49,320 nt of DNA from an uncultured Bacteroidales bacterium. GTDB taxonomy: Bacteria; Bacteroidota; Bacteroidia; Bacteroidales; FEN-979. Below are positions 5,150 to 33,955 of this stretch, piece after piece (position 1 is the stretch's first letter; every line of letters begins with the position of its first letter). The notes beneath the pieces are model-generated. The model saw only the letters and a list, made by a program, of their open reading frames with translations, did not search any database and was not told the DNA's origin. The translations under genes were made by a program, and so were the position numbers. The DNA lies in assembly GCA_903875045.1 (NCBI GenBank), contig CAIQUS010000241.1:1-49320 (forward strand), in the 5' to 3' direction.

Positions 5150-5282
5150 TATTAACAATCGTAATCTGTAGCCGGATCATTGCCGGTTTAAAAACAACCG
5201 ATATTAACAAAACGGGGTGTTGTCGTGTTCATAAAAATTGACTGATTATTAAGCATTAACAGGGCTTTCCGCGACAAATACG

Positions 5283-7152: not shown

Positions 7153-7287
7153 TCATTCGCGATCTTTGGTTTCAATAATTAATCGGTCAATATCATTTTC
7201 TGTAAAGCCAAGCTGGGTCCCGATACTTGTTATAAATGCCTTTTCTGTTGAATGCAGTTCATCATCGCATTTGGCAATGAGAATCAA
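7153..7287 (-). pseudogene. TerB-like C-terminal tail separated from EcsC by a frameshift
   Basis: Directly after the EcsC stop, the overlapping frame reads LILIAKCDDELHSTEKAF and onward to GTQLGFTENDIDRLIIE, ending with TGA at 7153-7155. This resembles the acidic TerB-type pattern (I-A-K-x-D-x-E followed by E, then LG and a helix). Adding one T near 7285 would fuse it in frame to the EcsC end (FELLKFYS-LILIAK). A TTG at 7285-7287 could also start it independently. I infer a single-base deletion; a sequencing or assembly error is possible. Confidence 0.5.
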
Positions 7288-8009
7288 CTATAGAATTTCA
7301 GTAATTCAAAATCCGGGCATTCCTCATTCAATTCTGTCAGGTCAATAAATTGGACTGCAACCGGCTCTTCTGATTTGGTTTTTATAAAAGTTTCACGAGC
7401 ATAATTACCGATGATATTTGTTGTGATTCCATTAATGGTTCCCCCAACGATTCCCCCAAACACCGGAATAATTTTAACAAGATTTATGGCTCCTTTTGTT
7501 CCGAATTTGGTGGCTAATTTGAAACCAACCATTTGATTGATTTTCACCAAAACCTTTCCCGGAATACGTGCTATTAATTTCTCCCCAGTTTTCAGTCCAA
7601 TCCGGATGCCAGCATCCTTCAAAATATCCTTTGCCGATTCACCAACTAAACAAATATAGATCAAGGTTTTTACTTTGTCATTTTTAACATCGTATCCCCC
7701 CAGATGTGCAATTGCGGCAATCATTCTCATTTGAATATAAACAGATGATGCCAGGTCGGCTGGAACTGCAACAGGTAAAGTAATTAACCCGCCAACACCA
7801 GTTAAAAATCCGGATGTTGCAGTTTTTGATATCTGCCAGCGAATTAACGAATTCACTTTATCCGTGAGACTCCCCTCTTCGTTCTCGTAATCGTGCGCCA
7901 AGTCAATGGCAGTTCCCATCCCGGGTAATCCATTTAAAGCTATTTCATAGGCCCAATCAAGTACTCGAAGCATTTTGTTCGAGTCTTCACTTTGTTTTTG
8001 TTCTGCCAT
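7284..8009 (-). CDS. EcsC-family protein (probably truncated by frameshift)
   Basis: The product is 241 residues from the chosen start MAEQKQSEDSNK (8009). The frame is open 38 codons further upstream, but that part is compositionally odd. The EcsC fold is recognisable by GLPGMGTAIDLA (about 28-38), the glycine-rich hydrophobic stretch GFLTGVGGLITLPVAVPADL (67-86), the helix SSVYIQMRMIAAIAHLGGYD, and a second glycine-rich stretch VFGGIVGGTINGI. EcsC proteins are membrane-associated and of poorly known function. The gene lies 88 bp after the AddA-like gene on the same strand, so it is probably the last gene of the long operon. Its C-terminus appears to continue, one base out of frame, into a TerB-like segment. 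Confidence 0.75.
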   Translation of the reverse strand: MAEQKQSEDSNKMLRVLDWAYEIALNGLPGMGTAIDLAHDYENEEGSLTDKVNSLIRWQISKTATSGFLTGVGGLITLPVAVPADLASSVYIQMRMIAAIAHLGGYDVKNDKVKTLIYICLVGESAKDILKDAGIRIGLKTGEKLIARIPGKVLVKINQMVGFKLATKFGTKGAINLVKIIPVFGGIVGGTINGITTNIIGNYARETFIKTKSEEPVAVQFIDLTELNEECPDFELLKFYS

Positions 8010-8097
8010 GGTTTCATTTCTTATATTTTTATAATGACGAATTGAAGTGAATGCCAGAAAACGCACCAGACAGTTTCGATCATATATGTTACAGGGG

Positions 8098-11000
8098 TTA
8101 CAATTTAACCAGCGCTCCCGCAATCACAAACCATATCACAGTCTCAACCTTTCTTCCAGGCCAGACCCGTTCCAGCATCTCCTGGTACAAAGCCATCTGT
8201 CCGCTATAGGTCCTGGCACGCCATTCACAGCGTTCACGGTTCTTGTCTGCATCAGCATACCCCGGGAATGTTTTGTAATCGATCAGCAGGATTTCGTCAG
8301 GGGTTTCGATCACCAGGTCAGCAATACCACTTAAAACCTGGTTGCCTTTCCCGGCCATCATGGGGTATTCCTTGTAATACGCAGCTGATTTATACCTGCG
8401 CCCTATCCATTCATTGAATTGCCGGATCGATGAAACCAGGTCAGCCGGAGAAATGATGCCTGTAAAGCCAAAATTTTCCAACAACCGTTCAATCAGTTGC
8501 AATTGTTCAGCTTCCTTCATCTCCTGGTGATTTGCACATAAAATGGCATGGATGCAGGTTCCGAAAGCGCCATCGTCTCCCACAAGACTAAGTTCAGCTT
8601 GCATTCGAGGATACAGCGGTATATATTCACTGATGTGTGCCTGGGGGATCTCTCCGGCAGATGACGGAGTGATAAGGAAGTCTTGAACGGGAACTGTTCC
8701 CTTTTGTGGCGTATAGATGATTGGGGCGGCAGCATCAACGAGAATCCCCTGTATCAGGTCGGCCTGCATGAATCGCCGGTACCTGAACTTCGAAGGGTAA
8801 TGCTTGTGATGAGTGTTCTTCGTCACATCGTTTTGAACAGGTTCGTCCCCGCAAATTTCTGAAAGTCCACCCGGGATGGCTTTTTCAAGCCAGTCCATTT
8901 TGTTGTATTCCTTGCAGGGAATGATGAGATAATCCCTGGCCCGGGTCATACCCACGTACAGCAATCGAAGGGCCTCCTCAAAACTTTGGTGATCTGCAGT
9001 GGCTTGTTCAGGAAGCGATGTAAAAAGTGTAGTAAATTCAGCATATCCTGAGGGCTTTCCATAAGGAGTGAACGAATAAGGCCAGGGCCAGTATCGGATG
9101 CTTCGTCCCGCCAGCGGTGCATCAAGATCCATGACTTCCTCGCCGGTAACATGGATTCCGAACACCTCAGCATCCCGGTCACGGTTCAGCTGTTGCATCA
9201 CCACCACAGGCCATTCGAGTCCCTTGGCACGGTGGTAGGTAAGAACGTTCACTGCGTTTTCGTTCACCACCAGGGCCTTTTTATCTTCACCGCTATCAGC
9301 CAGGCCATTGAACCATGCAATGAAAGATGAAATAGAGCCGGAGGCCCCGCTTGAATTTGATGATTCTGAAAACATATCTGTATAATTCAGCATCTCCTGC
9401 AGGTTACTCCACCGCTGGTGCTGATCTCCCCACACCGCTACGAGCTGAAGCATGTCCATTTCGGCATAAAGCAAACGCATCAGCAGGGTCAGTGGAAGTG
9501 CGGCTGCTGTCTCATTAATCTTATTAAGACGAAGAATAAAGTCGTTATCTCCAAGCCAGGAACCTGCTGCATCCCCGGGAACTGCATTCTTCTTTTGCTC
9601 CAGATACTCAAGGCGTCCATCAATCAATGCCCCGATGTTGTGACCGGGATCGGTGAGGTAGGCAATTTCTGCCTTTGCCAGTGAATCGAATGGATTATGG
9701 AGGTATTTCAGGCAAGCCATGACCAGCCTTGTTTCTGCCCTGCGTTGAAGCCCGGAGTCTGCTACGGTCGCATCAATGCCATATTCGCGAAGGTTGTTGG
9801 CGATATTGAGACAGGCGTCATTTGAAAAACAGAGAATGGCAATATCACCTGGCATGAGGCTCCTGATTTTTCCCGACATGGGATCTTCAATCAAGGGGCT
9901 TTCCCGGATAAAAGCAGCAACGCTTCCGGCAAGCAGATCATTATAGACAGGTACTGTCAATTTTCCCGGGGTACCATCCACCGAAAAACCCCATACCTGC
10001 AATGCAGTGTCAAGACCGGCATCCTCGAGCCCCTTTCGTACCGGTTTCAGTACGATCTGTTCTTTCCTGGGATATTCAGGTTTGTTCTTAAATGCCTCAT
10101 AAAAAACATCATTCACGAAATTAACCAGGTCAGGCCGCGACCTCCTCGATTCGGTGAGAAAATCCTTTTCGCCCGGGGTTCCCAACCGTCTGACAACTGC
10201 ATTGATCAATGTACTGTCAGTTCCCCGGAAACCATAAATGGCCTGCTTCGGGTCACCGACCCACACCACATGTTCCACGAGACTGGATATCTTCAGGAAA
10301 AGTGCGAGTTGTATTGGACTGGTATCCTGGAACTCATCCACCATCAACACCTTGTACTGCCGGCGAAAGCGTGTTTTCACATCCTCCTGGTCAAGCAGTC
10401 TGAGTACTTCTGCCTCCTGGTCGGCAAAGTCGATCACCCCGCGGCGCCGCTTGTACTCCTGAAAAAGACAAAGGGCGGCAATGGCTTTGTCAAAAACAAA
10501 GGAGATGTACTTGCGCAGATCATCCTGAAATTCCCGGAAGGAGAGATGATCTGAGGCCAATTCCATAAATGGTTCGAACAGGTCCTGGGATTTCTTTCCG
10601 GGACTCAGCTTGCAGACTTTTGCCAAGTCATACCAGGCAACAGAGGCGGGATAATGTGTCATATTATACACAAAACTCTTCAGCTCTTCCATGGCACCAG
10701 CCGTTTTTCCGGTAACGTCCGTGCCGGATGCAATTGCCCGGTCAAGTGCCGGAAACTCCCTGACAAAAAACCTTGCAGCATCCTCCATTGAATTTTCAGG
10801 CGCTGGCAGTTTATCCAGCATCGTGCTGATGGAAGAATCTCTGGCTGCAATCAGTTTGGGACCGTCCATGCCGTTGGACCGTGCCATATCCACAAGGGTG
10901 GCAACCTTTCCACGGATATCATCTCCTGTTGTTGAAAACCTGGAAGAAAGATAGTCCAGTTCATTGGCCGCTTCCCCCGAGATCACCTCTGTGAGCGAAA

Positions 11001-11346
11001 GATTAAACAATGACTGTTTCTCCACGTCCTCAATCACATTGAGAACAGGTGAAAGGCCGCCTTCAAAGGCAAATTGGGAAAGCAACTGACCTCCAACGCT
11101 GTTTACGGTTCCAATCAGGGCCTGATCAAGCAGGTCTACGATCTCATGATGCCCTGTCTCAAGTATCTTCCGCCGCACCCGGTCGCGGAGTTCTCCCGCC
11201 GCCATGCGGGTAAAGGTAGTGGCGATGACTTCAGACGGTGTGTATTTATATTTCCCCTGCGGATCAAGGAAATCGAAAAGTTCATTGGTCAGTCGGTAGG
11301 TTTTACCACTCCCTGCTCCAGCGCTTACAAGACGGATATTTTTCAT
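8098..11346 (-). CDS. AddA-like UvrD helicase with C-terminal PD-(D/E)XK nuclease
   Basis: The product is 1082 residues from the start MKNIRLVSAGAGSGKTYRLT at 11346. This start is chosen because it lies 1 bp after the upstream stop and places the Walker A (AGAGSGKT, 9-16) at the usual distance. Further helicase motifs are VDEFQDTSP (about 336-344), GDPKQAIYGFRG, LTYHRAKGLEWPVV and LLYVGMTRARDYL. The C-terminal nuclease shows GIADLVI with Asp about 1010, then LLIDYKT with Asp 1023 and Lys 1025. This is the AddA/RecB architecture, which resects double-strand ends. It partners the AddB-like gene just upstream. It could be the cell's recombination enzyme or a dedicated defence helicase-nuclease; its location inside a defence operon favours the latter without proving it. 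Confidence 0.88.
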   Translation of the reverse strand: MKNIRLVSAGAGSGKTYRLTNELFDFLDPQGKYKYTPSEVIATTFTRMAAGELRDRVRRKILETGHHEIVDLLDQALIGTVNSVGGQLLSQFAFEGGLSPVLNVIEDVEKQSLFNLSLTEVISGEAANELDYLSSRFSTTGDDIRGKVATLVDMARSNGMDGPKLIAARDSSISTMLDKLPAPENSMEDAARFFVREFPALDRAIASGTDVTGKTAGAMEELKSFVYNMTHYPASVAWYDLAKVCKLSPGKKSQDLFEPFMELASDHLSFREFQDDLRKYISFVFDKAIAALCLFQEYKRRRGVIDFADQEAEVLRLLDQEDVKTRFRRQYKVLMVDEFQDTSPIQLALFLKISSLVEHVVWVGDPKQAIYGFRGTDSTLINAVVRRLGTPGEKDFLTESRRSRPDLVNFVNDVFYEAFKNKPEYPRKEQIVLKPVRKGLEDAGLDTALQVWGFSVDGTPGKLTVPVYNDLLAGSVAAFIRESPLIEDPMSGKIRSLMPGDIAILCFSNDACLNIANNLREYGIDATVADSGLQRRAETRLVMACLKYLHNPFDSLAKAEIAYLTDPGHNIGALIDGRLEYLEQKKNAVPGDAAGSWLGDNDFILRLNKINETAAALPLTLLMRLLYAEMDMLQLVAVWGDQHQRWSNLQEMLNYTDMFSESSNSSGASGSISSFIAWFNGLADSGEDKKALVVNENAVNVLTYHRAKGLEWPVVVMQQLNRDRDAEVFGIHVTGEEVMDLDAPLAGRSIRYWPWPYSFTPYGKPSGYAEFTTLFTSLPEQATADHQSFEEALRLLYVGMTRARDYLIIPCKEYNKMDWLEKAIPGGLSEICGDEPVQNDVTKNTHHKHYPSKFRYRRFMQADLIQGILVDAAAPIIYTPQKGTVPVQDFLITPSSAGEIPQAHISEYIPLYPRMQAELSLVGDDGAFGTCIHAILCANHQEMKEAEQLQLIERLLENFGFTGIISPADLVSSIRQFNEWIGRRYKSAAYYKEYPMMAGKGNQVLSGIADLVIETPDEILLIDYKTFPGYADADKNRERCEWRARTYSGQMALYQEMLERVWPGRKVETVIWFVIAGALVKL

Positions 11347-11347
11347 A

Positions 11348-14065
11348 CTATTCGATATTTGTAAACGTGGAATAATCATTAAAACGGGCTGGTTTCTTCA
11401 CATCATCCCCCGGGGGAAGGAGATATTGTTCAGGATCCAGAGTAAAAACTTCCAGTTCCTCAATTGAAATACCCTCTCCCATTTCGATCTTACCCTGCTT
11501 CAGTTCGCCCATGCGGTATTCCACGGTTCGGAATAGTTTCGCAAGCTGCTGTTCGTATGCTTTAGCCCATTCATCAGAGCCTGCCGGAATGCCATCTTTA
11601 AACGCTTTTTGGTCACGGGTGTACAACCTCCCTGTACTGATGATAAAATAGGCAGTCGGCGAAAATCCGCCTGTGTCGTTGAAAAGCGACGAATAGAGCG
11701 CAAGCTGGAGGTCTCTGTCTTCATTTATCAGCCTGGAATAATATTTCCCGCTTTGCCATTTCAGATCGATGATGGCATATTCTTTCGGCCCTTTTTTCTT
11801 CCTGGAAAGCAGGATGTCGGCATAGCCTTGCAGTTTCAAACCCGATCGCATGGCCTCTTGGTGTGCTTCACAGCCTTCAACAACCCAATTGTTCCCGGTG
11901 ATATGTTTTACCAGTGCCATAAATTTCTCCTTTATGGCATGGTACAATGATTGTACACGGTCCTCCTTCCCCTTTTCAAGCAACAACATACCTTCTGTGT
12001 GAAGAATATAATCAACAGCTTTTGAATAGAGTTTGTCCAGGGCAGGCTGATCCAGCAATGTGACATCTTCATCGGGCCGGGTAAGAGCATACTGAAAAAC
12101 ACGGTGCGATACGTTGCCCATGAATCGGGAATCATCTGCCAGTTGCAGAATGGCCTCATCCTTGATATTTGCCCGGTATTTTAGTACCCAGATGAACGGT
12201 GACTCAACCAGGGAGTTCATCCCCGAATAGGAAAGGGCAAAATCACCAACAACAAGTTGTTCGGTATGGGTCACATGCCAATAGGCAGCCGGATCAGGAA
12301 GCCCGGAAAAGGGAAGGTAGGTCGTTGTTACAGCCAGATTTTCTCCGAGTGAGATGGTTTCAGGTCCGGATATCCTGGTCATCAGTTTGTAAACGGACTT
12401 AAAATGAGCGTCGATGAACGAACGGAAAGGATGCGGTTGAGATGTCTCCCCGCCGAAGTTTTCGGGAACAATGCAGATCAGTTGCCTCCTCACAAAACGA
12501 ATGAATTGTTTTCGAAGCCAGCTGTTTCGCTGCGATTTCAGATTTGCCGGTTCAGGAATCACTCCCCGGGTCTCCAACCAAATGCGTTCCTCCGGAAAAA
12601 AGGCTTCGCAGGAGGCACCCGTCGTACCCCCTGATGCAAAATCAAACCAGATCACGGTGTCGGCAAAACCGGCAAGGTTTCCCGGAGAGTTGATCACGGG
12701 CAGAGTGTCAGCTGCCCTGGTCGCCATGCAACATGATTCGCCGGTGATGGACTTTTCGATGATCCGTTGTAACTCCAGATCACCGATAAAATCCTCCTCT
12801 TCAAATAATGAAAGGATATCGAGCAGATTGGCGCATGAGTTGAGAATGGGTAAAAGCAGATTCTTCTCCACTCCATCAGCCATCCTGACATACCTGCCCC
12901 GCAGGATCCCGGCGGCAAATTCAAACAGGTTCCTGATGACGGATAAGGGGGCTCCTTTGTTTGTGTCGTATTTTTCATATCCGAGGAGGTAATCCAGGCG
13001 TGCTTTGGCCCTGGCAAACCGCTCCTCTTCTCCGACAGACTCCTGGTATGTTGTCAACGCCTCCTGCCATGGTTCGGAACCGATGCCGGGCTTATCCGAC
13101 ATCGCCTGAGCCAGGAGTCGGGAAAGATGCGGCGGCAAAAGGGTGACAGGGCATTGCAAAAACTCGAAAAGCTGCCTGGGCTGCCAGGGTTTCCAGAGAA
13201 AGACCGTAAGCAGCTCCAACAGGCATACCCCTGTCGGAACAGGATTGCCCGCCACGATCGCCGGTGTTGGGAAGCCATCTTTCCGAAGATCAAGGAAAGG
13301 CTGAATCTCATTGTTCTCGCTGATCACAACAGTGTCACGGCAAACCTGGTTCCGGATTAACCCCGCGAGGAGGTCTCCTGCCTGTAGTCGGTCGGGAAGC
13401 AGAATCAACTGCAGCGAACCATCTCCTTTTGCCTCGGATTTGCTAAACCCTACCTTGTTTGATGAAAAAATAAACGATCGCAACGAAGAGAGGTCCGACT
13501 CATCCGGTGATATGGCAGCAGGATTGAATTGCGAACATGCAATACCCTTCATCTCAAAGAGGGTAATCAACTCAGAAATATGCGGTGGCAGCAAATCCAA
13601 TGGTTCAAAATACAGAAACTCATCCAACGGCACATTCCTGCCAATCTTCAGCATGGCCAGGACATTCCTGAACCGATCCCCATACGCATCCGAAACCCCG
13701 GCAAGTGCCTCTGCGTTTGCCAGCGCTTTCAGGCGTGGCGGCATTTCCTCTGTTATGCCGAAATCCCACCCGGCAAGCATCAACTGATCCCGCCAGGAGA
13801 GCAACGTTTCAGCAACGTCGAGTTCATTTGCCGAAAAAGACTTTTCAAAAAACGTCCCCCTTTCAATTTTCTTCAGTGCTTTCCGGTATTTGAAAACACG
13901 CAGCACATTGTTTTCCGCTGGCCGGGACAGTCCCAGATGCAACTCAAGAAACGAAAGCAGTCCGGCTGGGCCTGTATGGCGGCAACCAGCAGCCATCCCA
14001 TCCTTCATGAAGATGTTGAGTGGGTAGGTTGGTTGATCGAAGAGGGTGGAAAATAGGATTTTCAT
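11348..14065 (-). CDS. AddB-like PD-(D/E)XK nuclease-family protein
   Basis: The 905-residue protein begins MKILFSTLFDQPTYPL and contains TGPAGLLSFLELHLGL near residue 34. The middle is helicase-like but lacks a recognisable Walker A, as expected of AddB/RecC-type partners. The C-terminal RecB-type nuclease is visible in GYADILLSRK followed by YAIIDLKWQSGKYY, where the Asp and the D-x-K pair are the likely catalytic residues. The next gene, AddA-like, starts 1 bp after its stop, so the two proteins almost certainly form a complex. It follows the SNF2-like helicase by 47 bp. I did not find the spaced four-cysteine iron-sulphur set of Bacillus AddB, so the match to classical AddB is partial. 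Confidence 0.78.
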   Translation of the reverse strand: MKILFSTLFDQPTYPLNIFMKDGMAAGCRHTGPAGLLSFLELHLGLSRPAENNVLRVFKYRKALKKIERGTFFEKSFSANELDVAETLLSWRDQLMLAGWDFGITEEMPPRLKALANAEALAGVSDAYGDRFRNVLAMLKIGRNVPLDEFLYFEPLDLLPPHISELITLFEMKGIACSQFNPAAISPDESDLSSLRSFIFSSNKVGFSKSEAKGDGSLQLILLPDRLQAGDLLAGLIRNQVCRDTVVISENNEIQPFLDLRKDGFPTPAIVAGNPVPTGVCLLELLTVFLWKPWQPRQLFEFLQCPVTLLPPHLSRLLAQAMSDKPGIGSEPWQEALTTYQESVGEEERFARAKARLDYLLGYEKYDTNKGAPLSVIRNLFEFAAGILRGRYVRMADGVEKNLLLPILNSCANLLDILSLFEEEDFIGDLELQRIIEKSITGESCCMATRAADTLPVINSPGNLAGFADTVIWFDFASGGTTGASCEAFFPEERIWLETRGVIPEPANLKSQRNSWLRKQFIRFVRRQLICIVPENFGGETSQPHPFRSFIDAHFKSVYKLMTRISGPETISLGENLAVTTTYLPFSGLPDPAAYWHVTHTEQLVVGDFALSYSGMNSLVESPFIWVLKYRANIKDEAILQLADDSRFMGNVSHRVFQYALTRPDEDVTLLDQPALDKLYSKAVDYILHTEGMLLLEKGKEDRVQSLYHAIKEKFMALVKHITGNNWVVEGCEAHQEAMRSGLKLQGYADILLSRKKKGPKEYAIIDLKWQSGKYYSRLINEDRDLQLALYSSLFNDTGGFSPTAYFIISTGRLYTRDQKAFKDGIPAGSDEWAKAYEQQLAKLFRTVEYRMGELKQGKIEMGEGISIEELEVFTLDPEQYLLPPGDDVKKPARFNDYSTFTNIE

Positions 14066-14112
14066 GGGCTGTGAATTTTAAATCTTGCATTGAATATAGA
14101 TTGTTTTAGCAA

Positions 14113-17100
14113 TCAAGTCGAAGTAGTGACCTTTGGCGGTGTCAAATCGATCATGAAATCACGTATCAACGATTCTGTTTCATCCTCTGTGAAGCCTCTT
14201 TTTTGGAGTACCTCAACAAGTTCTTCCTGGCGTGGTTGCCCAAAGGTCATGCGATAGAAGGCCAGAACTTCCTTTAAATGTGAATATTTTGCAATGTCTT
14301 TACTGAAAGGATACAGCGGAACAAGTCGTTCAATTTTACAATCCTCAAAGGGTTCGATGTGCCAATATGGCACCAGATCACATTTCCCTTTTTCGGTTCC
14401 CTCCTTGTGTTTTGCAAGAGCGAACATTTTATCCCAAATATTGGCCTCACCAGATCCCATCTTTATATCTTTGCTGTACTTCACCACAAGATTCTTCCTG
14501 ATGATATGGCTCTTATAACGATTGACACGACCTTCACGTTGTTCAAGATCGATGGCATTGTGCGGCAGGTTCCAATGAACAAGACGAGAACAATAATAGT
14601 GAAAGTCGAGACCTTCCTGGCCAATTGAAGTCGATGCCAGTACAAATGGGCGAAACGGGGAGTTAAAGGCATCCCGGACGCTGATTCGCCGGTTTGCATT
14701 CCCTTCCGTTTCGATATCCTGGTTACCAAAATCAACTGCAAAATGGGTCCGAATATTTTTACTCAAACCTGTTTTTACGGTTGAATAGTCATCAATTTTA
14801 AAGTTCACCGTTCTTAATGCAAGGACATCTTCAAACTTTTCTCTGATTTTAGTCAGGTCATGAATAAAATCACAATCGGTCAACATGTGCACATATTCGT
14901 CGGTAACCGACTGAAGATTCCCTTCCAAACAGTATTTGAGGGCAGCTTCCCAGTATGGATCACCCGCCGGAAAGCTGCTTCTTATAACGGTAATACTTTC
15001 CGGTTTGTCTAAATACCTCATCATCGCCTGGGCATATATATAACCCTGGACACGGTGAGCATTCCCGGGTGCCTTTAGTTGATTGTTTTTCAATAGACTC
15101 CTGGAGAATGTAATGGCCGGAGATGCCAGGCAAATCATGGCCAGAACTTTAAATAGATCACGTGGTATGTCTCCCAGTTTGAGATTCTCTGGGGAGAGAT
15201 TCATTGTCTTACATTGCTCAAGGTAGGCTTTTTCAGTCTTTTCCGCCTGCTTGCTTTTCACCAACGAATCAATAATGGAATGAAAGATGGGTAAATTAAC
15301 TTCGCCATTTTTTGCAGACGATTGAATTGGATTGTGATCAAACAACAACAACGCAGCCCAATACCAGCGATCAGATTCTCCCCCCGGAGTTTTATATTTG
15401 TCCAGCTTAAGCTCATTGAATCGCTTTTTTATAGCAATCTCAAGGTCCGCTACGATCGCATGCAAAGTTTGACTTTGGTACACATTCTGTTCAGGATCAT
15501 ACAGATCGCGCAAAAATTCGCTTGGGTATACCAAGGTTAGCAGATTCATTGAGGTGAACTCGCTCTTTTTATCAATTCGGATTTGCAACAGTCGTCCTGG
15601 CTTTCGTTTTTTTATATCGGCAAAATAAGAAGGTGGTTTTTCATTTCGCTTTTTACAATAGGAGGTAATGGCCATCCTCTCACTTTCATAGGAGAGTATC
15701 GTCGAAATAGCTCTGGGCACCATCAACCATGAAGAAAATAGTAGTGTTTTCGAATAGGATGTTTTTATAGGATAAATTTTATCAGGGTTATAGTAGTTTA
15801 ACGTTGGTGGAATCCATAGCCATCTCCATGCCTCCTCAAAATGGACTGTTGTTTTAAGCAATTCCTGCAACCTGGCATTTGGAACCACTGAAAGGTTGCC
15901 AATTTTCCCCAGTGGTTTATAGGCTTTGATCGTTGAAAGATCTATCCATGCGGATTGCTGACTTTTCAAAACCAAAGCAATTTCCGGATTGTTTATCAAA
16001 GTTTTCAAATTGTTACGTATCGAATAATTGCTCAGGAACGATAACGCGTATGGACAGGACTTGCTGAACTCAATGGGGTTCAAACTTCTATACCTTCCAA
16101 CCTCTCCAATCTTCTGGTTAACTATATCAAGTGCCAGGTAATCCTTTATGTCAGCTGCTGAAAGTGTTTTGCCTACATCGAACAGTGTTGCCTTTACCAT
16201 CAGATTTTTGTTGTCAGAAACTAACGTCCGCTCCGTCCTGACCATTCCCTGAAGGTATCTATCCTGTAAACGGTATTTTGTTTCTGTAAGTTCATCCCTG
16301 TTATTCATTACGCCATTCTCATGGGCTGAATACAGTAGGGAAAACATTTTCCGGCGATCTTCTTCAAAGTGAAGCCAGAATTCCGGGTCCTTATCACTCA
16401 TCAGAAATCGCAGCACTTTAATGAATTCCTGATAATGATTTTCACCCGCGTCTTCGTCACATCGTGTGGTGAAGGGTTTAAAGGGTGTTGCCGACAACAT
16501 CAGCACCTTGGTATCTTTCAATTCAAATACTGCCCTTGCCAGTTCCACAGCCGGTGAAACCTGGCCCCCATCCTGATCAATAAGATTGCTATATCGCTGG
16601 AATTCGTCAAGAATGATAAGTTCGGCACTCAGGTATTCCAAACATACTTTTGTTAGAATATGCCGTAATAAAAAAATCAATTCATTCTTGTATGTAACGT
16701 TTTTGTAGTTCCTGCCATCAATTGTTTCGATGCTTTTCAATAGTACATTCCAGATGGTATCAGGCTTGCCCAGACCAAGCGCCAGGCACAATTTCGGTGC
16801 ATTGGTTGCATCTATCTTTTCTTTTTGCAATTCGTTTTTGTATTTTTCAAACAAGTCCGCCCTGAAGTCCTTATTTCTGTTTGCGTATTTTTTATTAATT
16901 GTTTGTTTCCATTTTTCAGGATCAACACTGCTCTTCAGCAACCATTTCAGTCCATTCTTTCTTTCTTTGAATTCATTGTAATGCACCAGCAATGCATAAA
17001 TAATTGCACGCTCATCCTTAACACCCGATTTATTGGACAAATTAAAGGAAGTTGATGGTGTAAGCGAATCAAACCTCAATTTCTGCGGAGCCTTTTTATC

Positions 17101-17451
17101 ATTGTATGCCAGATAGATCAGTCTGTTCAAAGTGCTTTCAACCAGTTCTTCATTCCTCGAAAAATTTAATTTTCGCAGATTGGTTTTTGCCAGTGACTGA
17201 TTCGAACAAATGTAGATTACGTTAAATGTCGGGTTTCCCTTAGGAAAAGAGAATGCCTGGAACGCTTTTGCAATTAACCCTTTAGCAATGATCGTCTTAC
17301 CCAGCCCAACTTCGTCGGCAATGAGAAATGATTTTCTGTTTTTATTATAGAGTTGATCAAATACATAATCAACCGTTTTCTTTTGAAAGTCTTTCAGAGA
17401 TGCCCATGTTTGATTGATCTCGTTAAGGTATTCCGGTGTTTTACTTGTCAT
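14113..17451 (-). CDS. SNF2/DEAD-like superfamily-2 helicase of a restriction-like defence module
   Basis: The product is 1112 residues from MTSKTPEYLNEINQTWASL (17451). The longer open frame adds 19 residues of poor composition, while this ATG overlaps the upstream stop by 11 bp (ATGACAAGTAA), a coupling arrangement. Motif I is IADEVGLGKT (about 44-53), motif II is IILDEFQRYSN (about 279-289), motif III is LMLSATPFKP, motif V is STSIGQEGLDFHYY, and motif VI is DLEQREGRVNRYKSH. The unusually long insertions between motifs are typical of helicases in defence islands. It should translocate on duplex DNA, with the PLD-like protein encoded directly upstream supplying cleavage. The DUF6361-PLD-helicase order matches a gene set I recall as the antiphage RL system, an identification I could not check. 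Confidence 0.85.
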   Translation of the reverse strand: MTSKTPEYLNEINQTWASLKDFQKKTVDYVFDQLYNKNRKSFLIADEVGLGKTIIAKGLIAKAFQAFSFPKGNPTFNVIYICSNQSLAKTNLRKLNFSRNEELVESTLNRLIYLAYNDKKAPQKLRFDSLTPSTSFNLSNKSGVKDERAIIYALLVHYNEFKERKNGLKWLLKSSVDPEKWKQTINKKYANRNKDFRADLFEKYKNELQKEKIDATNAPKLCLALGLGKPDTIWNVLLKSIETIDGRNYKNVTYKNELIFLLRHILTKVCLEYLSAELIILDEFQRYSNLIDQDGGQVSPAVELARAVFELKDTKVLMLSATPFKPFTTRCDEDAGENHYQEFIKVLRFLMSDKDPEFWLHFEEDRRKMFSLLYSAHENGVMNNRDELTETKYRLQDRYLQGMVRTERTLVSDNKNLMVKATLFDVGKTLSAADIKDYLALDIVNQKIGEVGRYRSLNPIEFSKSCPYALSFLSNYSIRNNLKTLINNPEIALVLKSQQSAWIDLSTIKAYKPLGKIGNLSVVPNARLQELLKTTVHFEEAWRWLWIPPTLNYYNPDKIYPIKTSYSKTLLFSSWLMVPRAISTILSYESERMAITSYCKKRNEKPPSYFADIKKRKPGRLLQIRIDKKSEFTSMNLLTLVYPSEFLRDLYDPEQNVYQSQTLHAIVADLEIAIKKRFNELKLDKYKTPGGESDRWYWAALLLFDHNPIQSSAKNGEVNLPIFHSIIDSLVKSKQAEKTEKAYLEQCKTMNLSPENLKLGDIPRDLFKVLAMICLASPAITFSRSLLKNNQLKAPGNAHRVQGYIYAQAMMRYLDKPESITVIRSSFPAGDPYWEAALKYCLEGNLQSVTDEYVHMLTDCDFIHDLTKIREKFEDVLALRTVNFKIDDYSTVKTGLSKNIRTHFAVDFGNQDIETEGNANRRISVRDAFNSPFRPFVLASTSIGQEGLDFHYYCSRLVHWNLPHNAIDLEQREGRVNRYKSHIIRKNLVVKYSKDIKMGSGEANIWDKMFALAKHKEGTEKGKCDLVPYWHIEPFEDCKIERLVPLYPFSKDIAKYSHLKEVLAFYRMTFGQPRQEELVEVLQKRGFTEDETESLIRDFMIDLTPPKVTTST

Positions 17452-19303
17452 TTTGTATAAACGGTTTAAAAACATTCCACATTTCCATGAATTCCACTGG
17501 AATAACATGCTGACTATCTTTATCTTCCTGTATTCTCATTATGGCTTCTTCAACACTTTTCAGTTTGAACGGGTTTCGCGAAACAGTCCTCAACAAGTGT
17601 TCATAGAGTGGAACCTCATAAAGCAAGGCTGCTGAATTCCGATACTTTTCCATATTCCCAGCCGACGATGAAGACGTTATAGTATCGGTCGGTGAATCGA
17701 TCACTTCATTTTCGTTTAGTACCGACATCAGGAATTTCAGGAATTTATCAGTGGAATCAATCACTTCAGAAAAAACCATTGCAAGCCTCGACTTTGGAAC
17801 CTCGATATCGCCCAGTAGTAGGAATTGCTTTTTCAATGATTCATCATCCTTATAGGAAATACTGAAAATGAAATAGCGTGATAACTGCGTCAGAGGAAAA
17901 GTTTCTGAAATATTGACTGGCTCGAAACCCCCTGGATTAACTATAAAACCCAAGCTGTCAGTTTTTTGCATGAACAATGGTTTAATTCCGACAGAAAATG
18001 CAGGAAGCCAATCTTTACCTCGTGTGTCGATCTTAATATCGTAACGATACTGGTCTGTCACCCCTTCGATGCGGTTACACTTGCCCGAGATCTTACAATC
18101 AGCCAGATCAAATTCAAGCTTTCGCAGATGGTTGTTTAGAAAATTATCGGCAGGAATGACTTCCAACCGTGAAATATCAACTTTTTCAAACAGTTTGTGT
18201 TTATCATCAGTGGAAACAAGCTGATTTTTTATCGCCAGGGGGAATACCGATCGATCATTGGATGTAAGTTCAATCAAACATTCCGTATTCCGCCCAAATG
18301 CAGGTGCAGAGAGGTTTGCCGAACCAAGGAACCAGAATACCTTGTTCCCGGATTGATTGATGTATAATTTCGCATGAAGATCGCTGTCATTCGTGGAAAG
18401 AACTTCATTGTTCTGGACAACACGTTCGTCCAGTTGGCCCTCTCGTAACCGTTCATTGATACAAAAATATTCTGCCGGAGTGGCGTTTTTGAATGTTTCT
18501 ACTTTTAGTTTTTCCAGGGCATCTTTCCGCGTGAATAACCAACTGCTTTTGGCTGCTTTCATGGAAATTTGGTGCACCATTTCATCGTCAACAAAAGGTG
18601 ACATCATCAGCAAATGGTCGCTTCTGAAGGACCTTTTACTGAATGGATGATCATATCCCTTTCCTATCCCTATTGGCCAGAAATTCCAATCTAAAAAGGG
18701 CAGGTTAACAATGAACTTGGTTTTAAGTATGTCTACTTTGACCCATGATTCGATTTGTTTTCCTGATTTCTCCTCCAGGAACTCAAGAAAATCAACAAAC
18801 GGCCTGTTTTTTTCAATGGCCCTGTCCGTCACATCACCTTCCATATTGAAAGCGGTATCCCAACTCTGATCGAAGGTAAGGTTGCGGCTAGTTATAACAA
18901 ACCGGGTCCTTCGCTGCTTTGTCTTTTGATTTTCGAATATGAGGAACCAGCATTTGGGATGAAACGAGCTTAAATGATTGTCCGGATTTACACCGGCAAG
19001 GCATCCTTCAGTATAATGAAGAAGTTTACTAACCCTCTTAGGAAGATGGATCTTGTTCTTCTGATGGAACAATGTGATTACCTTTGCTGACTCAGTAATA
19101 GCATTTAGAACATCGTACCTTGTCACATCGGTAATGAGTTCCGATTCCATCGGACGAGAATATAACATCGCGACCGGGATCAGCAGCAGACAGGAAGGAT
19201 CGACAGAGTATGTCGAGCCAATTGCTCTTTTCAGGTGAAATCCGTCGGGAGGCTGAACAATCTTGCCATAATCCAGGTGTGTCTCTTTCCAAATATCAAG
19301 CAT
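17441..19303 (-). CDS. Phospholipase-D-like nuclease of a restriction-like defence module
   Basis: The 620-residue protein carries two HxK half-sites of the PLD superfamily: H115-P-K117 followed by TSRNLT (138-143), and H310-A-K312 followed by GSANLS (327-332). PLD enzymes pair such half-sites into one active centre. The Asp normally found five residues after the Lys is absent from both, which also occurs in some PLD nucleases. The likely activity is DNA phosphodiester cleavage in complex with the downstream helicase, whose start codon overlaps this stop. It begins 5 bp after the DUF6361 gene. The role in phage defence is inferred from context and from remembered naming of similar proteins as antiphage PLD proteins. 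Confidence 0.82.
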   Translation of the reverse strand: MLDIWKETHLDYGKIVQPPDGFHLKRAIGSTYSVDPSCLLLIPVAMLYSRPMESELITDVTRYDVLNAITESAKVITLFHQKNKIHLPKRVSKLLHYTEGCLAGVNPDNHLSSFHPKCWFLIFENQKTKQRRTRFVITSRNLTFDQSWDTAFNMEGDVTDRAIEKNRPFVDFLEFLEEKSGKQIESWVKVDILKTKFIVNLPFLDWNFWPIGIGKGYDHPFSKRSFRSDHLLMMSPFVDDEMVHQISMKAAKSSWLFTRKDALEKLKVETFKNATPAEYFCINERLREGQLDERVVQNNEVLSTNDSDLHAKLYINQSGNKVFWFLGSANLSAPAFGRNTECLIELTSNDRSVFPLAIKNQLVSTDDKHKLFEKVDISRLEVIPADNFLNNHLRKLEFDLADCKISGKCNRIEGVTDQYRYDIKIDTRGKDWLPAFSVGIKPLFMQKTDSLGFIVNPGGFEPVNISETFPLTQLSRYFIFSISYKDDESLKKQFLLLGDIEVPKSRLAMVFSEVIDSTDKFLKFLMSVLNENEVIDSPTDTITSSSSAGNMEKYRNSAALLYEVPLYEHLLRTVSRNPFKLKSVEEAIMRIQEDKDSQHVIPVEFMEMWNVFKPFIQNDK

Positions 19304-19308
19304 GTTTC

Positions 19309-20532: not shown

Positions 20533-20612
20533 GTTTTATTCAGTTAATTGTTCAAAATGAAATTTAGTCCCAGAATGGTTGCCTTACCCTAACCTGAACA
20601 GGTAAACGTAAC

Positions 20613-25792: not shown

Positions 25793-25895
25793 GGATTTAT
25801 TGACTTGCTTTTATTCGTTTTTAAACCTAATAAATGAGGTCATCGTTGTAAATGCCGAATTTTCCGATGCATATTGGCTGATCATAGATAAGGTT

Positions 25896-27368: not shown

Positions 27369-27393
27369 GCCTTAGTTATTTCTTTTCATAAAA

Positions 27394-28257
27394 CTACTCT
27401 GAAAAATCAGACTTCTTAATCAAATCCGCCAAAATATCCCTCCTGCCTACGTTCGCAGTGTAATATTCAAGCACATCATTCAGGATCTCATAATCCTCCT
27501 GATTGATCAACGCTACGTTGTCGTTTTTCTCTTAGCGGCCAAAGGCTCCGTTTTGGTTAAGCGTTTTCTCTAATTTATCAAAGGTCTATATCTCCGACAA
27601 CTCATGTTTTGCATCACTTCTGAACCGGGCAAATTTGCGGATGGTATTTTTTGCGTCTTTTCTGGTTTTATCCAATGCCTCCTCAAGTTTGCCACCGACA
27701 TGGGTTTTTATAAGTTTGTTGTAATCATCTACATAAACTGAGAAGCGGGCTTTCAGTATATCATTGAAGATAACCTTGAACGCTTTGCTGTGTTCGCCCT
27801 GCGATTCATGGCCGGTGAAAGCATCCAGATATTTCGGAACATAGGCAATATTCCATGCTGCTGTAAATAAAAATGGATTTTTCGTTCTTCCAAAAAGATG
27901 CGAAATCTGATAATTCTGGATTCGCTCCTTTCCGTCTTTTTTGCTGTCATCCGTCGTTTTTTTGTAGGGTGTAATCTCAGAGATCAACTTAGTAGGTTGC
28001 GCGTTATTGGATGAATCCTTCAGGATGGTCATCTCCGGGAATAGGTTTTTATACAATGCCATGAATAAATCGGTCTTTTTGGCATCCCTTCCATAACCCC
28101 TTATGTAGACAGGTCCATTATTTAAAAGCAATGCCTTGTGCTGTTTCCAATGCTTTTCAATTTCTCCGGGAGAAATAAAAATAATTGCATCTATACTGTC
28201 TTTAATGAATTCTTCTCTTTCATAGCGTTTAAATAAAACATCATACGCGTCTCTCAT
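27394..28257 (-). pseudogene. Putative HNH-like nuclease gene with two in-frame stops
   Basis: The first 223 codons (28257 to the TAG at 27586) begin MRDAYDVLFKRYEREEF and contain NYQISHLFGRTKNPF then AAWNIAYVPKYLDAFTGH. The order H120, N136, H150 suggests an HNH-type metal site, but I do not recognise the family with certainty. After the TAG the same frame stays protein-like (TFDKLEKTLNQNGAFGR), meets a TAA, then runs on as NQEDYEILNDVLEYYTANVG and IKKSDFSE to a final TAG at 27394-27396. Two stops in one otherwise coherent frame point to decay of a roughly 285-codon gene. The 223-residue product might still fold. It lies 51 bp after hsdS and 25 bp before the DUF262 gene. Confidence 0.6.
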
Positions 28258-28308
28258 TAGCCATAGGTTTTAGTAAAAATTTATACTCATTATATCACTC
28301 ATTTTCGA

Positions 28309-29613
28309 TCAACAATCTACTTTCATTAATTCGTCGCTAATTACCCTCACCTTCCCCGTCACCGCACTGTTTATCAAGGTGGCTTTGTACTCTTTCAACT
28401 TTTCGATTTCTTTTTCTTTTAAGGAAATGGCTTTTGCATTTTTTTTTGTTGCTAACATCAAATACTCCACAATTTCATCCTGTTCCTCAATTGGTGGATA
28501 TCCGACAGCCATTTCAAAAAACATGTTAGAATAAAACCTAAGTCGAGATGAATGCAACCCAGTAGATACCCGGTTATAGTGTGTTACATAATTTGGACTT
28601 CCTAACAACTTTTCAATATACCAAGAATTAAAGGTTCGTTCTTTTTGCCGGTATACTGCATAAGAGGGACTGACAATTCCTTCACGATCAGATACTCCTA
28701 ATGCACCCATCCATGCCCACATAATATTGAAAATCAAATCATCTTTTTGACATAATTTTGAATTTGAATAATCCTCAGCTTGAAACATGGATATATTCTT
28801 TTCTGAACGAGGTGTAACCCCCGTCATATGCGACACTGAGAGCAATTCCTCATCACCATTCTTTGAGCGGATATTAATTTCGTCAAATAAGTACTTTGCT
28901 CTTCTCACCTCCCAATGCTCCGGCACCTCCCCAATCCTCTCCACCCCGCTCTCTTTCATTTTTACATCGGGGTTCAGCCCACGGGTTACAGCCTTATGGA
29001 TGAGTATTTGCCTGCGTTCTTTGAGCAGTTCAATTTGCTTTTCCTTGATGCCAATGGCCTGGTCGATCAAAGCTGTTTTTCGGTCAAGAAATTGGGCGAT
29101 GGTGGCTTGTTCTTCGAGGGGAGGAACAAAAGTTTTAAAAGAGAAGAAATTTTCCTTTGAGATTGTATTTCTTAATCCGGTATAAAGTGGCTTTAATCTT
29201 TTATCTGCATCCAGGTTTAAGTAGAAGTAATACAGAAAACCTTTATCGAAATTGTCATTGGGTTGCATGACAGTGTAAGCGCCGGTAATCATCCCATCAT
29301 AATCAGAAAGCCCGACAGTTCTTGGTGTTTCCTCAACATCAAACAAACAGAAAATGAAATCCCCTTTACTAACCTCCTGGTATGTGTCAAACTCAGCCGG
29401 GAATTTCCCTTGAGGATTTTCCATGTCTCTTTTGATAACACCATTTAAGGTTAGAGAAAGAAGTACATAGTCTCCGGATTTCTTGCCAACCCGGTTTTTC
29501 TTTAATCGAAAAATATATTTGTTTGCTAAGATTCCCCAATGTTCCGGAACCTCCCCCAGCCATTCCGCCCCAGATGGTTTATAAGCAGGATATTGTGGAA
29601 AGTTGTTATTCAT
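28309..29613 (-). CDS. hsdS: Type I restriction specificity subunit HsdS
   Basis: The product is 434 residues from MNNNFPQYPAYKPSGAEWLG (29613). The open frame extends 23 codons further, into the decayed DUF1016 region, and lacks homology there. The protein has two target recognition domains, each opening with GEVPEHWG or GEVPEHWE, and two coiled conserved regions: PLEEQATIAQFLDRKTALID with the helix to LLKERRQ, and PIEEQDEIVEYLM with the helix to LKEYKATLINSAVTGKV. This is a full two-TRD HsdS that would recognise a bipartite DNA site and bind two HsdM subunits. It is separated from hsdM by about 1 kb of dead genes, which is unusual because hsdM and hsdS normally abut. Confidence 0.93.
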   Translation of the reverse strand: MNNNFPQYPAYKPSGAEWLGEVPEHWGILANKYIFRLKKNRVGKKSGDYVLLSLTLNGVIKRDMENPQGKFPAEFDTYQEVSKGDFIFCLFDVEETPRTVGLSDYDGMITGAYTVMQPNDNFDKGFLYYFYLNLDADKRLKPLYTGLRNTISKENFFSFKTFVPPLEEQATIAQFLDRKTALIDQAIGIKEKQIELLKERRQILIHKAVTRGLNPDVKMKESGVERIGEVPEHWEVRRAKYLFDEINIRSKNGDEELLSVSHMTGVTPRSEKNISMFQAEDYSNSKLCQKDDLIFNIMWAWMGALGVSDREGIVSPSYAVYRQKERTFNSWYIEKLLGSPNYVTHYNRVSTGLHSSRLRFYSNMFFEMAVGYPPIEEQDEIVEYLMLATKKNAKAISLKEKEIEKLKEYKATLINSAVTGKVRVISDELMKVDC

Positions 29614-29663
29614 TGTTGCTCTGATTTCCAATTTGTTTTTTTGAGGCAAGTATAAACGTGTAA

Positions 29664-29888
29664 CTAGCCTAATTGTCGCCACAGTGTAGCGACATTTTGT
29701 TCGCCTTATTCAGCTCGTTGATTATTCAGTATTTCTTTGTTAATCCTTGCGCCAATATTCCAATAAAGTGAGGTTACGCCCGAAGAAACAACTTTACTCA
29801 CCATGTTCCACGCATCATCAATCAATTTCTGAATATCGGCAAAGAGCTGTTGTTGGTTTTGCTGAATTTCATTCATAAGGTTTTGCAA
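29664..29888 (-). pseudogene. DUF1016 (YhcG-like) nuclease remnant, N-terminal piece
   Basis: From 29888 the frame reads MQNLMNEIQQNQQQLFADIQ and then SLYWNIGARINKEILNNQRAE, the start of DUF1016/PDDEXK proteins. A TAA replaces the tyrosine codon expected after QRAE, yet homology continues in frame as GEQNVATLWRQLG to a second stop at 29664-29666. The remaining 250 or more residues of the family are gone. This is therefore a degraded 5' fragment, not a 60-residue gene. Confidence 0.75.
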
Positions 29889-29914
29889 TTTTCAATATTT
29901 CACGTTTCAACTCA

Positions 29915-30154
29915 TCACCTCCTGTTCAAGTTATAGCATATCGGCGTTCTGCTCCTCAATCCAATGAGTGCTTGCATCAGTTCACCCTCTGAATATTCTT
30001 CAGAAATGGTCAGAAAGTCGAAAATAAATTCATCCTTTGGGGGTAGATAGGGGTGTTTGGCTGCGTTTATTGTGTCGGAATAGGCCAAACCCCGTTGCTT
30101 GAGCCTGTCGATTTGGTCGGTTACAATTATAGGCGGCTTGGTATATTTCATCAA
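29915..30154 (-). pseudogene. Chimeric remnant: Abi-family N-terminus joined to a DUF1016-like segment
   Basis: The first 28 or so codons (MMKYTKPPIIVTDQIDRLKQ, RGLAYSDT) match the start of Abi_2/AbiD-AbiF-type abortive infection proteins. The frame then changes character to DEFIFDFLTISEEYSEGELMQALI, which resembles the beginning of the DUF1016 nuclease domain, before drifting into a non-homologous end (LRSRTPICYNLNRR). Two unrelated fragments fused in one short frame indicate deletion between two dead genes. No function is expected. Confidence 0.6.
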
Positions 30155-30294
30155 ACACCCCCTCCGTTAAAATCGAAAACCCACCCTGGTGCGCTGTTCA
30201 AATGGGAAGCGTGGTGAGTCTTATTGGACACAAAAGTACAAATAAATATTTCAACCCTCCAAATTCCTTGCATAATTCTTCTTTGTAGTATTTA

Positions 30295-30597
30295 TCAGTT
30301 AATTGCAGGTAACTCTTTACAATAAATCCAACGCTCCTGGCTTTCTTTGCACTTGGATAAAATGATAAGGTGCTTGGTCCAGCTAATTTCTCCAACCAGT
30401 GGTTGGAGATTTGCATCCGGGAAATATTCATTATAAAATTGGACCATGTACCATAAGTTTGTCGCAGAAAAACCTCCCATGGATGGAAACTCTTTTTGAA
30501 GTTCATTAACCGCTTTAAGCGCTTCGTATTGCGCTACCCTGACTTTTTCTTTAATTTCAGTAATAAACTGAATTTGTTCGTGATCCAAACTATTCAT
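30295..30597 (-). pseudogene. DUF1016 (YhcG-like) remnant with internal deletion
   Basis: The 100 codons begin MNSLDHEQIQFITEIKEKV and AQYEALKAVN, then jump to ELQKEFPSMGGFSATNLWYM and LQPLVGEISWTKHLIILSKC, the hallmark of the DUF1016 N-terminal domain. About 40 residues normally found between AVN and the LQKEFP motif (the YWDIG and WGKSVVE segment) are missing, and after SQERWIYCKE the frame loses homology and stops. It starts 23 bp after hsdM. This is a separate copy or piece from the DUF1016 remnant at 29664-29888. Confidence 0.7.
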
Positions 30598-30619
30598 AAC
30601 TGATTCAAAATGAATTTAA

Positions 30620-32986: not shown

Positions 32987-33001
32987 ATTTTTATCGCATC
33001 A

Positions 33002-33955
33002 TTATTTGTTGGTGATCCATAGGGTGAACCCTTTATCCATGTTAAATTTCAAATGCTTTCCTTTCAATTTTTGAATGATCCTTGTATTTTGTTCCAGTAC
33101 TCTTGCCAGGTCTCTTGCAACAGCGGATCCACCTATGTCATTTGCAACAATACCGTCGGAAAACTCCAGGTTGAATGAAAAAGATTGCCGCTTGCTGACT
33201 TTTTTAAAATCTTCCTGGGATAGTTGAATACTCAGTTTTCTGACAGTAACTTCGTTAATGGCAGTTTCTATCAGCGGCAAGGCAGTTTTGAATATGTCCT
33301 CGTACTTATGCTCATTTTGATCCGCGTTCACCGAATTGGTTCTGAAGGGCACAACTTTAGTTTTGATGGGCTCCATGGATGTATCCTTTGGGGGCATAAT
33401 TTGATTGGCCTCCATGGCACAAGCTTTTCGGGCCGCTTTTATTGTTCGGGCATGGGGATTTTCCGGATTTTTGGAATCAATATTCAACAATGGCCTGGCT
33501 TCTGCAATTAATTCGGTTTCCAGCCTGTCTATTTCTAAAGGTGGTTGATTATGCTCATAGAATGAAAGAGCCAGATTGTCTTTCATCCATGTTGTGAGTT
33601 TGGCTTCAGATGAATCGTCAAACTTAAAAAACGATTTTCTTCCGGCATCAAAGTCATCGTCATTCCTGGGAATTGGAATTAACGACAACTCATCTTTCAA
33701 CAATGCCCCCAATGACCGTCGGATCGTGGAACTTCCTGTTTTTCCCGAAGCAAAATGAGTCTTTTCATCCCGGCTTGCCTGGCTGCTTTCCGTTTTCCCA
33801 ATGTAGATGATCTCGTCTTTTTGAGGATTATAGTCCGCTATCGGAAAATTCTTTCCGGTAAAAAACAAAGCATAGATTCCAGGCTCACCGGAAAATTTCC
33901 GGATTTGCTTGTAAGGACAGGAATTGTTTTTAAGGCTGGTGATGATCTGGTTCAT
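33002..33955 (-). CDS. GIY-YIG nuclease-family protein heading the type I operon
   Basis: The product is 317 residues. GIY (26-28, in EPGIYALFF) and YIG (51-53, in IIYIGKTESS) define the catalytic fold, with a conserved arginine nearby (R62 or the RR pair at 79-80) and an acidic position in RLETELIAEARPLLN (about 144-158). The C-terminal 130 residues (from KYEDIFKTALPLIE) match nothing I know; they could form a DNA-binding or regulatory domain. As the first gene of the long minus-strand run, 15 bp before hsdM, it probably belongs to the type I locus, perhaps as an extra nuclease. An AT-rich promoter-like region lies just upstream. Confidence 0.8.
   Translation of the reverse strand: MNQIITSLKNNSCPYKQIRKFSGEPGIYALFFTGKNFPIADYNPQKDEIIYIGKTESSQASRDEKTHFASGKTGSSTIRRSLGALLKDELSLIPIPRNDDDFDAGRKSFFKFDDSSEAKLTTWMKDNLALSFYEHNQPPLEIDRLETELIAEARPLLNIDSKNPENPHARTIKAARKACAMEANQIMPPKDTSMEPIKTKVVPFRTNSVNADQNEHKYEDIFKTALPLIETAINEVTVRKLSIQLSQEDFKKVSKRQSFSFNLEFSDGIVANDIGGSAVARDLARVLEQNTRIIQKLKGKHLKFNMDKGFTLWITNK

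Follow-up and report, generated by a model that had tools for sequence, protein, structure and literature searches.

Azaca and an AddB–AddA pair in one run of genes

The window analysed here, contig C241 from the 5.96-Mb genome (253 contigs) of an uncultured Bacteroidales bacterium, is 49,320 bases long. From position 33955 down to 7284 it carries 13 main genes plus debris, with every main open reading frame (ORF) on the minus strand, as a first-pass annotation of this DNA had stated for the stretch from the GIY-YIG gene to the EcsC gene. In Pfam terms the order is GIY_YIG_2, HsdM, debris, HsdS, orf223, DUF262, DUF262-DUF1524, HsdR, DUF6361, phospholipase D (PLD) protein, helicase, AddB-like, AddA-like and EcsC (Table 1). 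The DUF6361-PLD-helicase trio is, judged by its PADLOC matches, Azaca (ZacABC), and the AddB-like and AddA-like genes come directly after it. Azaca and AddAB are found side by side in other, unrelated bacteria as well, a recurrence that suggests cooperation between them.

Table 1. Genes and debris of the minus-strand run, listed in the direction of reading (aa, amino acids).
Feature	Coordinates	Strand	Evidence and remarks
GIY_YIG_2 nuclease-domain protein, 317 aa, opens the run	33002..33955	-	Pfam PF20815, 77 bits
HsdM type I methyltransferase, 788 aa	30620..32986	-	NPPY motif; PF02384, 209 bits; HsdM_N, 84 bits; PADLOC MTase_I, 876 bits
Debris: broken DUF1016_N pieces (30295-30597, 29706-29876) and a weak YhcG_C piece (29918-30151)	29614..30619	-	60.7, 24.9 and 17.0 bits, the last two below the curated cut-off
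HsdS specificity subunit, ORF of 457 aa from GTG, likely ATG 29613	28309..29682	-	PF01420; PADLOC Specificity_I, 419 bits
orf223	27586..28257	-	No family match
TgvA-like DUF262 protein, 490 aa	25896..27368	-	GmrSD_N and DUF7834; DGQQR at 82, FDTQN at 168
TgvB-like DUF262-DUF1524 protein, 692 aa	23714..25792	-	GmrSD_N and GmrSD_C; DGQQR at 83
HsdR, 1033 aa	20613..23714	-	HSDR_N; GSGKS, DEAH
ZacA (Azaca), DUF6361, 407 aa	19309..20532	-	PADLOC ZacA, 234 bits; PF19888
ZacB (Azaca), 620 aa, single chain with two PLD half-sites	17441..19303	-	PADLOC ZacB, 398 bits
ZacC (Azaca), SF2 helicase, likely ATG 17451	14113..17508	-	PADLOC ZacC, 922 bits; GLGKT, DEFQ
AddB-like protein, 905 aa, PD-(D/E)XK domain	11348..14065	-	PF12705, 45 bits; D750, D767, K769 kept
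AddA-like UvrD helicase and PD-(D/E)XK nuclease, 1093 aa, likely ATG 11346	8098..11379	-	GAGSGKT, DEFQDT; D1021, D1034, K1036
EcsC-family protein, PADLOC candidate PDC-S29, likely ATG 8009	7284..8123	-	Frame ends at 7284

ZacA, ZacB and ZacC are adjacent and in the order of the PADLOC models, the first two separated by 5 bp and the last two overlapping by 11 bp at 17441, an overlap seen at first pass that holds if ZacC starts at ATG 17451. The domain names given to the trio at that stage were about right; the possibility that it is an unnamed system was rejected, since the three PADLOC matches lead to Azaca. Azaca is said to come from the work of Millman and colleagues in 2022, and no mechanism for it was met in the accessible text of the open-access literature searched. 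In ZacB the residues of both half-sites (H115, K117, N141, D149 and H310, K312, N330, E341) are invariant over 48 aligned rows, and the structural model (predicted local distance difference test score, pLDDT, 84) matches Tdp1 (E 5e-8) and PLD3 with TM-scores of about 0.3-0.5, so that the resemblance is confined to the fold core. The AlphaFold2 model of ZacA (pLDDT 88) is essentially all-helical and had no match in the PDB at E 0.001 (best E 0.55). Of 395 genomes from the window's phylum, three had a ZacC match, one of them being the source genome, and a scan of viral contigs with ZacC found no relative.

The AddB/AddA-like pair, also about rightly named at first pass as judged from Pfam and key residues, sets the window apart from Azaca as such: a dedicated AddB-AddA pair begins 47 bp downstream of ZacC. 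As in AddAB/RecBCD, an AddA-like protein with SF1/UvrD helicase motifs and a C-terminal nuclease is joined by an AddB-like partner that also has a nuclease, and the nuclease residues of both are conserved. The window pair differs in belonging to a mobile clade apart from another UvrD/AddA-like gene of the same genome (1032 aa, contig C35), in the N-terminal domain of AddB, which had no ADDB_N match at E 0.01 and no NCBIfam match, and in the C terminus of AddB. In AddAB enzymes the C-terminal nuclease of AddB carries an iron-sulphur cysteine cluster; the corresponding CxxC...C is present in 8 of 11 aligned AddB and absent from the window's and from those of two other loci (L020, introduced below, and L102).

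Recurrent association of Azaca with AddAB/RecBC genes

A contig search with an alignment of six ZacC proteins returned at least 498 relatives, of which the best 80 were kept and their loci all examined. At seven of these 80 loci (L020, L022, L025, L052, L065, L087 and L089) an ORF of at least 1000 aa matching the AddA/RecB profile, whose seeds include positives, lies beside Azaca, at a distance of 26 to 3,414 bp. Chance would give 0.27 for the 80 loci, or 0.22 for 50 of them, an expectation that rests on a hand count of about 58 full-length AddA/RecB-like ORFs among the matches listed in 203.5 Mb. Flanks of 3.5 kb are available on both sides of only 42 loci and on at least one side of 71, so that seven in 80 may be an undercount. 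The subset of 50 loci (49 genomes) was chosen mainly for long flanks and includes all seven positives, a choice that favours the association. HsdR served as a control. Its 61 sites, spread over 31 of these genomes, had no listed full-length AddA/RecB within 5 kb and two within about 12 kb, with distances judged by eye from coordinates. At 5 kb the contrast between seven or six of 80 and 0/61 gives p 0.017-0.031 (Fisher). With the 50 loci the values are 0.003-0.007 at 5 kb and 0.04-0.08 at 12 kb; we rely on those for 80. No description of the Azaca-AddAB link was found in the open-access literature searched, subscription papers lying mostly outside that search.

Together with the window, a Methylocystis parvus plasmid and a genome from the phylum of L025 (G615), the seven loci make ten linked cases, and in four of them, the window included, the order is ZacA-ZacB-ZacC-AddB-AddA. 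In L065 ZacC is likewise followed by AddB-AddA, whereas in L020, L025 and L087 AddB-AddA precede ZacA, in L022 RecC-RecB and an HA/HNH-like protein do so, and in L089 AddA and then another helicase stand ahead of ZacA. Azaca shares its strand with AddA/RecB in six of the seven loci, the exception being L052, where AddA and a 744-aa PDDEXK protein are convergent with it. The junctions are 47 bp in the window, 77 bp in G615 (all five genes on one strand), 26 and 27 bp in L020 and L025, and about 5 bp in L065. On the M. parvus plasmid pMpar-1 the order is integrase-ZacA-ZacB-ZacC-orf140-AddB-AddA, and ZacC and AddB lie 741 bp apart. Small AddA-type C-terminal matches touch Azaca in L044 (UvrD_C, 138 aa), in L091 and, weakly, in L036 (PDDEXK below the cut-off). 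The L091 match (L091:6078-8156), which starts where ZacC ends, joins an ADP-ribosylglycohydrolase to the C-terminal part of an AddA-type protein (PDDEXK). Ahead of ZacA in G615, on the same strand, lies a gene for a Sacsin-domain protein matching PADLOC TmtA (L177:4484-7447).

Mapped on a tree built from 86 ZacC proteins, the ten linked rows require ten changes, and the five of them tied to the mobile AddBA clade require five; supported branches agree in both counts. The nearest ZacC rows to the window's are from Bacteroidota. In the AddA tree the seven Azaca-linked rows (L052 left aside) need six changes, at least four of them by supported branches, and the Azaca-linked AddA/RecB belong to several lineages. 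Such counts point to pairing on several separate occasions, or to several rounds of loss and replacement, rather than to a single cassette passed down by descent. Both trees were made by quick methods and have long branches, that of the L104 ZacC being very long; L063, which the ORF-based scan of the 80 loci missed, is absent from the ZacC tree.

Several observations weigh against a functional link. Full-length AddA/RecB is absent from the examined flanks, many of them short, of 73 of the 80 Azaca loci, and AddBA is therefore not required for Azaca as a family. Some of the HsdR sites are on short contigs, which lowers the control, and at 12 kb the contrast of the 80 loci with 2/61 is not significant (p 0.17-0.24). 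HsdR itself is near six of the 80 Azaca loci; Azaca thus sits in defence islands, and island clustering alone is also at work. Seen from the AddB side, of 15 new loci from two phyla one carries Azaca (G615), nine lack it despite long flanks, and five are short or cut, and among the 26 plasmid records with AddB only two, both of M. parvus, have a full Azaca beside it. A third plasmid record, from Methylocystis sp. MJC1, has a ZacC match of just 79 residues, far away.

These points bear on the simplest rival, in which the run is an ordinary defence island formed by preferential insertion and selection for co-transfer, with Azaca and AddBA functionally unlinked. It would account for the weak HsdR contrast at 12 kb, for the decayed genes within the run, for G+C that differs by module (0.50 in AddB/AddA, 0.41 in ZacB/ZacC, 0.34 in the DUF262 pair and 0.46 in HsdM) and for the occurrence of the AddBA clade near WYL, CBASS, ThiF, SIR2, SNF2 and DUF262 genes as well. 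It fits poorly with ten separate placements in the ZacC tree, in both gene orders and with several AddA lineages, with junctions that are mostly very short, and with the absence of a listed AddA/RecB within 5 kb of any of the 61 HsdR sites in the same genomes. We hold this rival to be a fair possibility, though less likely than not.

The mobile AddBA clade

That the AddB/AddA genes of the window are a housekeeping copy was rejected, given the AddA/RecB-like gene on C35 and their placement in a separate clade. The AddA tree was built from 39 AddA/RecB proteins. In it a clade with a Shimodaira-Hasegawa-like approximate likelihood ratio test (SH-aLRT) value of 100 unites the window's AddA with those of L020, L025 and eight plasmids, and the remaining 28 rows, the C35 gene among them, fall outside it. 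PADLOC-DB 2.0.0 has no fitting AddB model for this clade: the sole hit of the window's AddB is DruK at 17 bits, the G615 AddB had no hit at E 1e-5, and AddA matches helicases such as GajB (111 bits, partial). A second AddBA locus, truncated by the assembly, may be present in the source genome, where a 4.3-kb contig (C249; L098:3059-4276) holds the last 405 residues of another AddA that shares 79% identity with the window's. Different genes follow it, and the three that were scanned had no Pfam match.

Searching 72,556 plasmid records with AddB (tblastn) gave 26 matches, and in all eight records inspected AddA immediately follows AddB. Neighbours of the plasmid pairs include WYL regulators, cyclic-oligonucleotide-based anti-phage signalling systems (CBASS), SIR2, ThiF and SNF2. 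In the window's phylum the AddB profile matched 12 of 390 genomes, strongly in three (the source genome, G037 and G178), and the strong relatives in G037 and G178 have no AddA next door. An AddB alignment search of L025's phylum was positive in 4 of 297 genomes, that of L025 included; besides G615 these are G535 and G545, in which the stretches inspected contain no Zac gene. The same search was positive in 12 of 398 genomes of the phylum of L024, another of the loci. There, seven AddB loci with long flanks (G941 has little sequence on one side) have no Zac gene, four are on contigs of 3-8 kb, and that of G810 is a piece at a contig end.

AddBA of the window's family also occurs on one contig, MT835507.1 (phage label unconfirmed), with an Azaca-like trio that resembles the PADLOC candidate PDC-M27A/B/C. 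Those proteins are distant from ZacABC, the scores are weak for A (32 bits) and B (34 bits), and the trio is about 6-7 kb from AddBA on the opposite strand. Such a neighbour, like the CBASS, SNF2 helicase, DUF262, ThiF and WYL genes found near the clade, would be expected if AddBA were a general mobile helper that degrades ends for any adjacent cutter (restriction-modification (RM), TgvAB, Azaca or PDC-M27) and were not specific to Azaca. Pairing is not equally frequent with all cutters, as the 0/61 HsdR sites with a listed AddA/RecB within 5 kb indicate, and we would call this helper role a fair-sized possibility that falls short of being probable. The finding also draws attention to a mobile clade of AddBA that resides in defence islands.

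A mosaic of modules and its possible action

The remainder of the run contains a complete type I RM system, as the first pass had it, with the domains and motifs of HsdM, HsdS and HsdR all present and the catalytic motifs of HsdM and HsdR kept. The hsd genes are not contiguous: some 1 kb of debris separates HsdM from HsdS, and three genes (orf223 and those of the 490-aa and 692-aa DUF262 proteins) separate HsdS from HsdR; contiguity is usual but not strictly required. Both DUF262 proteins reported at first pass are indeed there, as neighbours, with DGQQR in each and DUF1524 in the second, which are the marks of TgvAB, a system of the GmrSD family that acts on phages with hypermodified cytosines. 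HsdM-HsdS-[DUF262]-[DUF262-DUF1524]-HsdR thus appears, from domains and motifs, to match a type I RM locus with embedded TgvAB. In the accessible text of PMC11411939, TgvAB (VC1767-66) splits the Vibrio type I RM locus VC1769-68-65 and, like RloF, sits between hsdR and hsdS; TgvA and TgvB are both required, the target phages have hypermodified genomes, and the five-gene arrangement gave 79 hits in 41,142 genomes. The accessible part of PMC12255303 describes further defence genes between hsdS and hsdR. Compared with VC1769-VC1765 as given in that part of PMC11411939, the window shares the DUF262 pair between hsdS and hsdR, with DUF1524 in the second protein and DGQQR in both, but differs in having orf223 before the pair, a GIY-YIG gene in front and HsdM parted from HsdS by about 1 kb of debris. 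The RM locus with TgvAB-like genes is a published architecture; Azaca with an AddAB/RecBC pair is the arrangement found here.

The first-pass annotation had proposed that all of this is one 26.8-kb operon whose layers are expressed jointly and perhaps act jointly as a single unit. One strand and small gaps speak for it. The stop of the second DUF262 gene overlaps the HsdR start (TAATG at 23714), and the gaps are 15 bp for GIY/HsdM, 51 for HsdS/orf223, 103 for DUF262/DUF262, 80 for HsdR/ZacA, about 1 for AddB/AddA and 88 for AddA/EcsC. The tightness claimed for the junctions holds for most of them and fails at HsdM/HsdS, where about 1,006 bp of debris separate the HsdM end (30620) from the HsdS ATG (29613), and at orf223/DUF262 (217 bp). 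Nor does the run end at 7153, as had been stated: the EcsC frame stops at 7284, and 7153 is reached only in a different frame. A 44-codon frame at 7153-7287, directly after the EcsC stop, may be the former C-terminal end of EcsC.

G+C is similar within modules and shifts from module to module: 0.497 and 0.498 in AddB and AddA; 0.444, 0.414 and 0.408 in ZacA, ZacB and ZacC; 0.453 in HsdR; 0.345 and 0.344 in the DUF262 genes; 0.397 in HsdS; and 0.458 in HsdM. This block pattern fits stacked modules. Scans for sigma-70 promoters and terminators stayed within about 1.4 standard deviations of shuffled sequence. A single strict match to a Bacteroidota-type promoter lies on the minus strand at 30263-30231, in the debris, and about a third of resampled controls also match. 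Between a single transcript and several, the sequence and these scans cannot decide.

The gene order expected to be conserved elsewhere was found in part: two sub-blocks recur, RM with TgvAB-like DUF262 genes and Azaca with AddAB/RecBC. The full order was in no other locus examined, and HsdR-ZacABC-AddBA were together in none, although these loci, of up to 23 kb, are too short for the full 26.8 kb. Partial parallels to the operon are L044, where HsdM-HsdS-HsdR close to the window's (HsdR 1173 bits) lie ahead of ZacABC (L044:1-13213) with 868 bp and the UvrD_C fragment between HsdR and ZacA, and L005 (a Haliscomenobacter plasmid) and L014 (an Algoriphagus genome), where ZacABC stands between HsdS and HsdR as embedded cargo, the L014 HsdS being called by an 87-bit match to that of L005. 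Given the debris, the G+C mosaic, sub-blocks found apart and the lack of RM, Azaca and AddBA together in any second locus examined, the single-unit model is in our judgement very unlikely, and the run of 26.8 kb appears to be a mosaic made up of modules.

We lean towards a stack of separately acquired modules, one of which, Azaca with a dedicated AddBA, would be an extended Azaca whose AddBA degrades DNA ends. Gene content and order, conserved catalytic residues and recurrence in unrelated bacteria are what we observe; joint expression, the order of action and everything on substrates in what follows we infer. Module 1 would be the type I RM locus, carrying between HsdS and HsdR a modification-dependent nuclease that resembles TgvAB. 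For these two layers, the first pass had suggested that the type I enzyme deals with unmodified DNA and the DUF262 proteins with modified DNA, and the accessible text of PMC11411939 already argues this for the Vibrio architecture; the further suggestion, that the AddAB-like enzyme acts on the cut ends, is plausible, with indirect support from the recurring pairing. In module 2, ZacA-ZacB-ZacC-AddB-AddA, invading DNA would be attacked by ZacC as the motor, by ZacB as a PLD nuclease with two sites and by the helical ZacA, and AddBA, with one UvrD motor and two PD-(D/E)XK nucleases, would load on ends left by Azaca or by restriction enzymes and degrade the DNA. AddBA would then be a private stand-in for host AddAB/RecBCD, perhaps beyond host control or phage inhibitors, and could keep end degradation running while the host enzyme is blocked; in the window it could also serve ends from the type I and TgvAB-like enzymes. 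According to the accessible text of a preprint (PMC13192584), phage defence by Druantia III with Zorya II can depend on RecBCD. A bolder form of the extended-Azaca reading, which we think unlikely, is a five-protein machine in which Tdp1/PLD3-like ZacB clears protein blocks or odd ends, ZacC translocates and an inhibitor-proof private AddBA destroys the ends, Azaca repeatedly capturing any AddAB/RecBC because end degradation is its missing step. The recurrent partnership with AddAB/RecBC, which seems to have arisen many times, offers a direct, testable clue to the action of Azaca on DNA.

Rfam and tRNA scans gave no match. Por secretion-tail proteins are encoded beside the run and, like the nearest ZacC rows, fit an origin in Bacteroidota; a CarboxypepD_reg/TonB-plug protein lies to its right. 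To its left are IS66 genes (4790-6881 matched) and, beyond them on the plus strand (282-4421), genes for a NERD-helicase (87 bits to PADLOC RTasNERD-Hel), a DUF2779 protein and a DnaB-like protein; the defence-like region may extend left past the IS66 genes.

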